40,540 nucleotides of DNA from Gammaproteobacteria bacterium (GTDB lineage Bacteria; Pseudomonadota; Gammaproteobacteria; Pseudomonadales; Pseudohongiellaceae): NCBI GenBank assembly GCA_030147705.1, contig JASBUV010000099.1, forward strand, positions 1 to 40,540. The letters run 5' to 3'. The position numbers and the translations under genes are program-made. How positions within the stretch are numbered: position 1 is the stretch's first letter; every line of letters starts with the position of its first letter. The notes under the pieces are model-generated. The model did no database searches and was not told where the DNA came from. It worked only from the letters and a program-made list of their open reading frames with translations. Positions 13,401 to 16,324 of this stretch are shown piece by piece.

Positions 13401-14351
13401 TCAGAGCGATTCCGCCGCAGGCTCTGCGGCAGGAGTAGCGCTTTCCTGTTTGAGTGCTGGACCGGCGATCTGCTCAGCGTTGGTCATATACACGTGTGGC
13501 AAACCGGATTCCTCTAACCAGGCGATGGCCTCATTTTCCGGTTTCAGCATGGCAATGGTGGCAAAAGAACCTGCCACAGTGCACAGATTCGCAGCCACGC
13601 TCACAGCACGCAGCCCCTTGCTTGGCCAACCCGTTTTGGGGTTCAGGATGTGGCTGTAGCGTTCACCATTCAGCTCAAAATAGCGTTCGTAGTCGCCGCT
13701 GGAAGCGAGGCCGCCGGCACTGAGATCGATCTTGGCCATCATTGAGCGGCGCTCGCCCGGATTTGCAATCCCGACTGTCCACGGCCGTTCTCCTGGTTGC
13801 TCGCCGATTACCGCGAAGTCCCCACCAAGATTGATCAGGCCATGCTGAATGCCCATGCGTCTGGCCATCTTCGCTGCCGCATCAGCGGCGTATTCCTTGA
13901 CGATACCACCGAGATCCAGCTCCATTCCGGCCGGAAGATGCAAACGTTGCCCCTGCCAGCTTAGTTTGTGGAAACCAACGCTGCGCAGCACTTTGTCAAT
14001 GGAATCCTGAGCCGGGATTCGCGCCTGACGAAAATCCCAGAGCCTGTAAAGAGCTCCGGCAGTGACGTCGAACAGGCCTTCACTTTCCTCGAAGCATTTG
14101 AGCGCGTGGTTCAGAATGCCGCGCGTCTCGGTATCAATCTTGATGCCGAGTTTGCTGCCAGCAGACAGGTTGATCTCAGTAATAAAACTGTCGCGTCTAT
14201 AGCGGGAATACTTCTTGTCGAGACGACTGACTTCGCGTGCAAGCTCCTGAATGCGTTGGCGAGCATTGATGCGTGAAGAGTCGTAAATCTGAATTTCGCA
14301 GGGTACGCCCATGGCCTGAAAGCCATAGCGTTTAAGAGTGGCAGTGGTCAT
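13401..14351 (-). CDS. apbE: ApbE-family FAD:protein FMN transferase
   Basis: 316 aa; FQAMGVPCEI, DVTAGALYRLW, DLGGIVKEYAAD, GLINLGGDFAVIG, YSHILNPKTGWPS. Confidence 0.92.
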   Translation of the reverse strand: MTTATLKRYGFQAMGVPCEIQIYDSSRINARQRIQELAREVSRLDKKYSRYRRDSFITEINLSAGSKLGIKIDTETRGILNHALKCFEESEGLFDVTAGALYRLWDFRQARIPAQDSIDKVLRSVGFHKLSWQGQRLHLPAGMELDLGGIVKEYAADAAAKMARRMGIQHGLINLGGDFAVIGEQPGERPWTVGIANPGERRSMMAKIDLSAGGLASSGDYERYFELNGERYSHILNPKTGWPSKGLRAVSVAANLCTVAGSFATIAMLKPENEAIAWLEESGLPHVYMTNAEQIAGPALKQESATPAAEPAAESL

Positions 14352-14365
14352 AAAGCAGAAATTGC

Positions 14366-15529
14366 CTAAAACGTAAAATCGAATCCCAGAGATACCCGGG
14401 TGTAACTGACCAGAGCTGCGCCTGGTTGGGTGACAGCATAGGCAGAGTGCTTGTGATCTGCAACATATCTTTCCGCTGTCAGTGTGGCTGTCCAGTCATT
14501 AATCGACGCGACGATACTCGCACCGCCACTGAATGCACCATAGGCTGAGAGTCGATAATCGCTCGATTGGAATTCAGTGAGCGGTTTGAGGAAGTCGTCA
14601 ATATTCGTGTAGAAATCTGCAGCGGACTGGCTGTAGTAGCGCAGATTGGGAACAAGCTGCCAGCGATTACCAAGGTTTTGATGCCAGGCCACACTCAAAG
14701 TGTGTGAGCTGACTCCAAAATCATCGTGATAGTAACGATAATCCGTGTGCAGCGCAGCGTCTGCATTTACGACGAAATAGCGGTAGGCGCCGCTAAGAGC
14801 AATCTGGGTCTTATTGTCTGGTCGTACATCCCGAAATTTATACGGATCACTGAGAAACCCGGATTGCTCAGTCAGACTGCCTGCCAACTGAAACGTGGAG
14901 CGCTGGTTAATGATCTGGCTAATGCTGATAACGGCAGATGAACTCTGTTTGTCTGCATTGCGAACCCGATTGAAAATAGCGGCATCAGTGGGAAAGATAT
15001 CATCAGCGGAATGGCTGATACCGACAGACACGGTAGTCATTCCTTCGTTGATTGTCTTCTGCCCGGAAAAACTGAAATAGGTAGCGCGATAGTCGTTCTC
15101 TTCAGAATAACCAACAGCGCCCCCGATGCTTCCGTCGCTCAAATAGTAACGCACACCCACAGCTAACTCACTGCGCTCATCGGTAATGCCGCTGGCGCCG
15201 CTCATGTTGATGATTGGGCTGCCGTTCGTGCCTGCGGTCGTAAACCAGGGAGATGCCCCGCTCATGTTTTCATGATTGGCATCGATCTGGAGCGAGTAAT
15301 CGCGACCTACTGGAGTGAGCAGGCGGAATTGATGGACGTCGATGTCATAGCGCTCAAGACTCCCGAACGGAACCTGGGAGCGGCTCATGTCATCTTCGTT
15401 GTAGTTGGAGAATTTGTAGGAGAGCGTGGTTTGTGGCGGTGGTGCATCTCCTGATGCAATGCCCGGTATGGCCAGAGCGGTGCTGGACAGTGCCAGAAGG
15501 GATTTGGAGCGCTGCCGAAAGGGTTTCAT
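14366..15529 (-). CDS. DUF3570 domain-containing protein, predicted outer-membrane beta-barrel
   Basis: 387 aa; signal-like N-terminus, alternating beta-strand pattern, terminal aromatic (VSLGFDFTF), MSGASPW motif; located between ApbE and DUF4266 genes. Confidence 0.8.
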   Translation of the reverse strand: MKPFRQRSKSLLALSSTALAIPGIASGDAPPPQTTLSYKFSNYNEDDMSRSQVPFGSLERYDIDVHQFRLLTPVGRDYSLQIDANHENMSGASPWFTTAGTNGSPIINMSGASGITDERSELAVGVRYYLSDGSIGGAVGYSEENDYRATYFSFSGQKTINEGMTTVSVGISHSADDIFPTDAAIFNRVRNADKQSSSAVISISQIINQRSTFQLAGSLTEQSGFLSDPYKFRDVRPDNKTQIALSGAYRYFVVNADAALHTDYRYYHDDFGVSSHTLSVAWHQNLGNRWQLVPNLRYYSQSAADFYTNIDDFLKPLTEFQSSDYRLSAYGAFSGGASIVASINDWTATLTAERYVADHKHSAYAVTQPGAALVSYTRVSLGFDFTF

Positions 15530-15550: not shown

Positions 15551-15769
15551 TCAGTTACAACCGCAGCCACCACCCGCTGCGCTATTACCTCCGGAAGAGG
15601 CTTCCTTGCTGAAAAAAATATGATCGTTCAATGCGGCTTCGAGCGGGTCGGCGTCCCAGGCCATTTCTTTCTTGGCGAGATAACCCATTTCCCACGGTCG
15701 GACCTGAGTACAACTCGCGAGCAGCACAGCAAGCGCAAGCAAGACGACTGATTTGAGCGACAGTTTCAT
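15551..15769 (-). CDS. DUF4266 domain-containing small lipoprotein
   Basis: 72 aa; lipobox LLASC|TQVRPWEMGYLAKKEMAWD, C-terminal GGGCGCN. Confidence 0.82.
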   Translation of the reverse strand: MKLSLKSVVLLALAVLLASCTQVRPWEMGYLAKKEMAWDADPLEAALNDHIFFSKEASSGGNSAAGGGCGCN

Positions 15770-15772
15770 TGC

Positions 15773-16324
15773 TCAGTTACCGGCCAGGAGTTTCTGAATC
15801 TCAGCTTCGATAATTTCGATGTCACCATTGCGAAAGCCCATGTGGACAAGTTTGACTTCGCCGTCCGGTGAAATCAGGTAAGACGAAGGCATGCCAATTA
15901 CGCCAAACAGTTCGGCCGAATCACCGTCGGGATCAGCTGGAATCAGGAAATCGAGTGGTGTATCCAGCAAAAAGTCGAGGCCATCTTCTATGGGGTTGTC
16001 GAGATTGATAGCGACAATTTCGAAGCCCTGATCGCGGTACTTGTGATAGAGGTCGTTATACAGTGGCAGCGAAGTCAGGCACGGGGCGCACCAGGAGGCC
16101 CAGAAGTCAACATAGACGGTTTTGCCCGCAAGGTCGGCCAGGGCAATCTCAGGCTGGTTCTCGTAGATTGATGGCAGCGTAAAATCCGGTGCAGGTTCTC
16201 CTTCTTCAACCGCGTTGACAGTGCCGGCCAGCAACAGCGTTGCTGCAGGGATCAAGATGCTGATGGCCCGGGACTTCAGAATCTGGGCTCTCTCAACCGC
16301 CCACTGTAGGATTTCGTTGCTCAT
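15773..16324 (-). CDS. TlpA-like thioredoxin-fold protein, exported
   Basis: 183 aa; hydrophobic N-terminal segment, GEPAPDFTLPS, active site FWASWCAPC. Confidence 0.9.
   Translation of the reverse strand: MSNEILQWAVERAQILKSRAISILIPAATLLLAGTVNAVEEGEPAPDFTLPSIYENQPEIALADLAGKTVYVDFWASWCAPCLTSLPLYNDLYHKYRDQGFEIVAINLDNPIEDGLDFLLDTPLDFLIPADPDGDSAELFGVIGMPSSYLISPDGEVKLVHMGFRNGDIEIIEAEIQKLLAGN

Follow-up and report, generated by a model that had tools for sequence, protein, structure and literature searches.

Meheust et al. (2021, PMC8238504) reported that the DUF3570 protein of Chlorobium luteolum is flavinylated by its cognate ApbE, that the DUF3570 proteins associated with ApbE have two conserved [S/T]GA[S/T] motifs, and that flavinylation of the C. 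luteolum protein was abolished only when the serines of both motifs were changed to Ala. The protein used there was expressed without its signal peptide and taken from the insoluble pellet, therefore the experiment is uninformative on the compartment in which the flavin is attached. The same work describes clusters in which ApbE and DUF3570 occur together with DUF4266 and a thioredoxin-like protein; DsbD is part of some of them, 316 are counted without a neighbouring DsbD gene, and the work suggests iron as the acceptor in those clusters that include VIT1. Regarding ApbE in general, it is the final Ser/Thr of the motif that becomes modified, flavinylation of Ser is reported to be poorer than that of Thr, and changing Asp to Ala in the motif of a Klebsiella pneumoniae substrate had only minor effects (PMC12052999). 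According to that source, the ApbEs characterised for secreted targets are mostly periplasmic lipoproteins, and a cytosolic ApbE of K. pneumoniae modifies a soluble fumarate reductase.

In the window, that is, the whole stretch of 40,540 nucleotides that was analysed, we found a cluster of four genes of this kind, all of them on the minus strand. The first encodes a TlpA/ResA-like periplasmic thioredoxin (15773..16324; Pfam AhpC-TSA/Redoxin/Thioredoxin_8; WASWCAPC), whose match to the NCBIfam ResA model is below the cut-off. It is followed by a small DUF4266 lipoprotein (15551..15769; Pfam PF14086, E 6.1e-22; lipobox LLASC, tail GGGCGCN), by the DUF3570 protein of 387 aa (14366..15529; ATG start; Pfam PF12094, E 1.6e-54) and by an ApbE flavin transferase of 316 aa (13401..14351; Pfam PF02424, E 2.4e-75). 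The DUF3570 profile matched with a score of 185.8 bits, its cut-off being 25, which makes the protein a member of the family. The apbE gene starts 15 bp downstream of the DUF3570 gene on the same strand, which places both in the same cluster, and it also lies directly 3' of DUF3570 in relatives. No DsbD gene was found among the cluster genes examined, and a gene of the DsbD family is present on another contig of the window's genome, which is 78% complete.

Our main reading, to which we give a probability of roughly 70%, is that the cluster encodes an envelope redox system in which the DUF3570 protein would be flavinylated by a cytosolic ApbE, exported by Sec and folded into a two-flavin, 16-strand barrel of the outer membrane that takes part in an electron relay.

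The two motifs of the DUF3570 protein

The sequence-only reading had pointed to two MSGAS motifs in the DUF3570 protein as resembling ApbE flavinylation sites, and its motifs, coordinates, residue numbers and spacing of 20 residues were all exact. Predicted site 1, ENMSGAS, is encoded at 15251..15271 on the minus strand (residues 87-93; DNA gaaaacatgagcggggcatct), and predicted site 2, INMSGAS, at 15191..15211 on the same strand (residues 107-113; DNA atcaacatgagcggcgccagc). The protein thus carries two [S/T]GA[S/T] cores, at residues 90-93 and 110-113. Both copies read S-G-A-S and the first one has a Glu, Glu87, at the position of the canonical Asp, three residues before the first S/T of Dxx[S/T]GA[S/T], as had been described; site 2 has Ile107 there, which is not acidic. 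Because the last Ser/Thr of the motif receives the FMN (PMC12052999), the predicted FMN-bearing residues should be Ser93 in site 1 and Ser113 in site 2 rather than Ser90 and Ser110.

At least one [ST]GA[ST] was found in 9.2% of the shuffled DUF3570 proteins and at least two in 0.4% of them (100,000 shuffles), therefore the pair by itself is only mildly unlikely to arise by chance; it is significant because it is conserved across homologues. In an alignment of ten DUF3570 sequences, with identities to the window protein of 38-73%, M89-S90-G91-A92-S93-P94-W95 and M109-S110-G111-A112 were invariant. This rules out a chance origin of the pair, and the sequence-only reading, which had made the invariance of the xxMSGAS core a check of its proposal, was borne out in these close homologues. 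That one motif arose by recent duplication of the other within the gene could also be discarded, since the codons for SGAS differ between the two copies (agc ggg gca tct vs agc ggc gcc agc).

Our search for DUF3570 was positive in 54 of 146 genomes from the same order and in 29 of 399 from the phylum, and 101 copies, all from Pseudomonadota, were compared after one repeated locus had been removed. The loop motif was found in 46 of the 52 copies with a close apbE on the same strand vs 27 of the 45 copies without it (Fisher p = 0.0018, a value not corrected for kinship). It is therefore commoner beside apbE in the sampled Pseudomonadota, in line with what had been anticipated from the window alone. 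A strict rule by which the absence of an adjacent apbE means the absence of the motif was ruled out by the same 27 copies, which keep the loop motif. Furthermore, at least one ApbE is encoded in each of the 38 genomes examined, which were picked largely for lacking an adjacent apbE. In a separate clade of DUF3570, SSAS replaces SGAS at site 1 and there is usually no close apbE.

Some loci of the survey were peculiar in other respects. The genomic setting of the mostly-SSAS clade differs from that of the window, as seen in L168:5858-18538 (also L084-L108 and others); the DUF3570 of L168 itself reads SGAS, its neighbours include a thioredoxin, small barrel proteins and a match to the middle domain of hydrazine synthase alpha, and an exported-type ApbE lies around 10 kb away from it. 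Some DUF3570 reading frames reach 912-955 aa, about double the usual length (L014, L123 and L145), and in L117:5976-9524 two DUF3570 genes that share the motif loop stand in tandem, with one ApbE downstream.

The -3 position distinguishes the two sites. At site 1 it was D or E in all the 55 non-redundant homologues bearing the motif (37 D and 18 E), and at site 2 it was L, V, I or Q in all the 18 homologues with two motifs, never D or E. Together with the many DUF3570 relatives that retain site 1 alone, this is the pattern to be expected if site 1 alone were modified and site 2 were a structural element of the loop. We think that this is unlikely, because the MSGA of site 2 is invariant in the close homologues, both serines of the C. 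luteolum protein had to be mutated (PMC8238504), and the change of Asp to Ala was of minor effect in the K. pneumoniae substrate (PMC12052999). As the Asp was reported to matter little in that one tested substrate, site 2 may still be usable as a flavinylation site despite its missing acid. We nevertheless counted two points against flavinylation at two sites, namely the lack of an acid at site 2 and the presence of Ser, not Thr, at both.

ENMSGAS and INMSGAS are thereby supported as very probably the sites at which ApbE attaches flavin to the DUF3570 barrel. The idea of the sequence-only reading that these Ser residues could carry FMN, which would make the protein the local substrate of ApbE, agrees with both the C. 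luteolum experiment (PMC8238504) and the conservation, but it is not new: flavinylation of DUF3570 was already published for the family, and the window supplies one more member. The claim on the motifs being settled knowledge for the family, the interest lies in where and when the flavin is attached.

The predicted barrel and the position of the motif loop

The DUF3570 protein had been called barrel-like from its sequence. AlphaFold, run with the window protein and eight homologues as input, gave a model that is a barrel of 16 strands (pLDDT 82.5, pTM 0.80). The Foldseek matches of the model were outer-membrane barrels, including the PgaA barrel 4y25 (TM 0.68 on the target), FadL, OmpG and the chain 6r2q_B of an Mtr complex, and a search by sequence found no solved structure of any DUF3570 relative. 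The window protein has a signal peptide at around residues 1-27, called by eye, and its C-terminal residue is Phe387. Outer-membrane barrel proteins often end in an aromatic residue, and F, Y or W is the last residue in 80 of the 100 DUF3570 proteins. The signal peptide, the even number of modelled strands, the terminal Phe and the fold matches together indicate an outer-membrane beta-barrel.

Both predicted sites are carried by loop L2 (residues 91-116; 15182..15259, minus strand), which lies between strands 3 (78-90) and 4 (117-130) and was modelled with a small hairpin (residues 94-99/105-109) at moderate confidence (block means 72-78). The connections between strands alternate in length: on the side of the termini they have 2-4 residues (75-77, 131-132, 161-164, 209-210, 254-257, 286-289 and 344-345), and the six longest connections are all on the opposite side (46-61, 91-116, 179-193, 224-238, 302-329 and 359-374). 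As a general rule both ends of an outer-membrane barrel are periplasmic. Since L2 is opposite the termini in the model, L2 and both flavin sites are probably on the extracellular side, which is the answer the model gives to the question, raised by the sequence-only reading, of whether the motifs would be surface-exposed or periplasmic. Regarding the other loops, conservation across the family is highest, among the long ones, in L5 (224-238, GFLSDPYKFRDVRPD). Such conservation is unusual for a surface loop and hints at a functional outer face or a plug.

The DUF4266 lipoprotein (15551-15769) accompanies DUF3570 more strictly than apbE does. We detected it at 99 of the 101 DUF3570 copies, normally just upstream, and has a C-terminal CxC in 98 of them; over these 98 copies the GGGCGCN tail is near-invariant, nearly all the tails reading GCGCN. 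The tail might extend into the barrel or else coordinate a metal.

The ApbE lineage linked to DUF3570

The window ApbE has the N-terminus MTTATLKRYGFQAMG and its start lies 13 residues before the first conserved MG. There is no further ATG, GTG or TTG upstream in the frame of the gene, and neither a signal peptide nor a lipobox was found in the protein, the best hydropathy over 12 residues being -0.45. According to the alignment to solved ApbEs, from which residue equivalences were read, and to the residue roles given in PMC12052999, the enzyme keeps the catalytic Ser218 and His234, and Gly261 replaces the Asp, so that the catalytic triad is incomplete. With this conserved catalytic residue changed to Gly261, the window ApbE might be impaired or might work differently.

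The same two features were found together in other DUF3570 loci. In the Pseudomonadota sample, 51 ApbEs near DUF3570 genes had the Gly and no hydrophobic N-terminus, and nine had the Asp and a signal, seven of them in loci of the SSAS clade and the other two next to divergent DUF3570s whose site 1 reads TAAS; one further ApbE near DUF3570 was incomplete at the Asp/Gly position. Among 18 further ApbE regions, twelve were canonical, each of them having the Asp as well as a hydrophobic N-terminus, and six were of the Gly type, one of which (L175) is the already counted L120, leaving five new ones. The Nqr-linked ApbE of the window's genome also has the Asp and a signal. Thus, the totals for the sampled Pseudomonadota are 56 distinct Gly-type ApbEs without a signal vs 22 Asp-type ApbEs with a signal, where export signals were detected by a hydropathy threshold and not by a trained predictor. 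The Gly-type ApbEs form one clade (support 99/96), therefore the correlation between the signal and the Gly represents one evolutionary event, not many. The partner enzyme encoded in the window thus looks like an unusual form of ApbE, located in the cytoplasm.

The Gly-type enzyme is not always adjacent to its presumptive target. In three genomes (L170, L171 and L172, in G092, G016 and G021) it is encoded on a different contig from a DUF3570 gene that has the motif and lacks an adjacent apbE, in L173 (G085) it lies around 4 kb downstream of its DUF3570, and in L174 (G046) it adjoins a DUF3570 fragment at the contig end.

These data bear on an alternative in which the flavin would be attached in the periplasm before insertion into the outer membrane, either because the window ApbE is exported by a non-classical route or because another, exported ApbE acts on the barrel. 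We give this only a small chance, although the ApbEs known to serve secreted targets are mostly periplasmic (PMC12052999) and the window's genome does encode an exported ApbE beside its Nqr genes. A periplasmic ApbE fits poorly, because the window enzyme has no export signal, no upstream start codon from which one could be read, and nothing else in its sequence that supports such a route. Furthermore, a hydrophobic N-terminus was found in none of the 56 DUF3570-type ApbEs vs all the 22 others, and the genomes without apbE beside a motif-bearing DUF3570 still encode, besides an exported ApbE, one of the Gly type that lacks a signal.

The nqr genes of this genome, named from our reading of their sequences, are in L154:3-5420, where nqrB-F are followed by the canonical exported apbE; NqrB has the motif DGFSGAT and NqrC has DGLSGAT, both canonical. 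Since the nqr genes are thus served by a separate apbE, no other task is evident for the one in the window. In L155:3366-4652 we also observed a NosR-like FMN_bind protein, truncated where the contig ends, in which the motif reads DGVSRAT. That the DUF3570 motifs are purely structural and that the ApbE next to them acts on a different substrate, e.g. NqrC, is very improbable: SGAS is short (one copy by chance in 9% of the shuffles) and the genome has two FMN_bind proteins, but a relative was flavinylated directly (PMC8238504), the motifs are conserved, the Nqr genes have an apbE of their own, and in the related clade that reads SSAS at site 1 the associated ApbE is of a different type.

Proposed pathway and comparison with known systems

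In our preferred reading, with flavinylation in the cytosol, the thioredoxin-like protein, the DUF4266 lipoprotein, the DUF3570 protein and ApbE would make up a small envelope redox system. ApbE would transfer FMN from FAD to Ser93 and Ser113 of the DUF3570 protein, most likely in the cytosol and on the unfolded precursor; this timing, before export, is suggested by an ApbE without an export signal whose DUF3570 target has a signal at its N-terminus. Sec would then export the FMN-bearing precursor, and the protein would insert into the outer membrane, where both flavins would be close together in L2, at the outer mouth of the barrel or in its lumen. The TlpA/ResA-like thioredoxin is the probable electron donor. 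Electrons would pass from a DsbD-type protein to this thioredoxin, to the CxC lipoprotein, to the flavins and finally to an acceptor located either at the outer membrane or beyond it, a route suggested by the gene order, the WCAPC of the thioredoxin, the CGCN end of the lipoprotein and the DsbD family gene elsewhere in the genome. We infer in this way that the window protein is modified, that this happens in the cytosol, that the sites face outward, and by which route electrons reach the acceptor.

A more general proposal is that DUF3570 proteins are surface-facing flavin barrels that deliver electrons to the exterior of the outer membrane with no need of haem, and that they are flavinylated in the cytosol by a dedicated, signal-less and Asp-less lineage of ApbE and cross the inner membrane by Sec already loaded with FMN. 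We put this forward tentatively, with somewhat less than an even chance of being right. If a cytosolic ApbE does load the FMN before passage through SecYEG, the picture of a periplasmic ApbE fails for the DUF3570 family, and if both flavins face outward, the widespread DUF3570 barrels become candidates for haem-free electron transfer across the outer membrane, e.g. to iron. The parts worth following are the topology of the barrel and the Gly-type signal-less ApbE lineage; in the main text of PMC8238504 we found no mention of a barrel and no statement that ApbEs linked to DUF3570 lack the signal or the Asp.

The window shares with the clusters described in the main text of PMC8238504 the Pfam families, the gene set, the two motifs and the adjacent apbE and, like the 316 clusters counted there, has no neighbouring DsbD gene. 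It differs in the thioredoxin, which matches AhpC-TSA/Redoxin in the window and is PF13899 in those clusters.

Compared with the ApbE of Vibrio cholerae and FmnB of Listeria, the window ApbE belongs to the same Pfam family and gives matches of 93 to 143 bits to solved structures. However, it has no signal peptide or lipobox, it has KEY, not KGY, in the GGIxKxY stretch, and the triad of the V. cholerae enzyme, Asp285, Ser241 and His257, corresponds to its Gly261, Ser218 and His234; in FmnB the position of Gly261 is occupied by Asp301. The cytosolic ApbE of Klebsiella pneumoniae resembles that of the window in having no signal peptide, but its target remains cytosolic, whereas the target in the window would be an exported outer-membrane barrel.

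Finally, DUF3570 would have in common with the MtrCAB porin-cytochrome conduits an outer-membrane barrel that possibly carries electrons across, and the Mtr chain 6r2q_B was among its fold matches, a general similarity between barrels for which we do not claim homology. In contrast with MtrCAB, there is no haem protein among the four genes of the window, and the barrel would carry its own redox groups, the two flavins.
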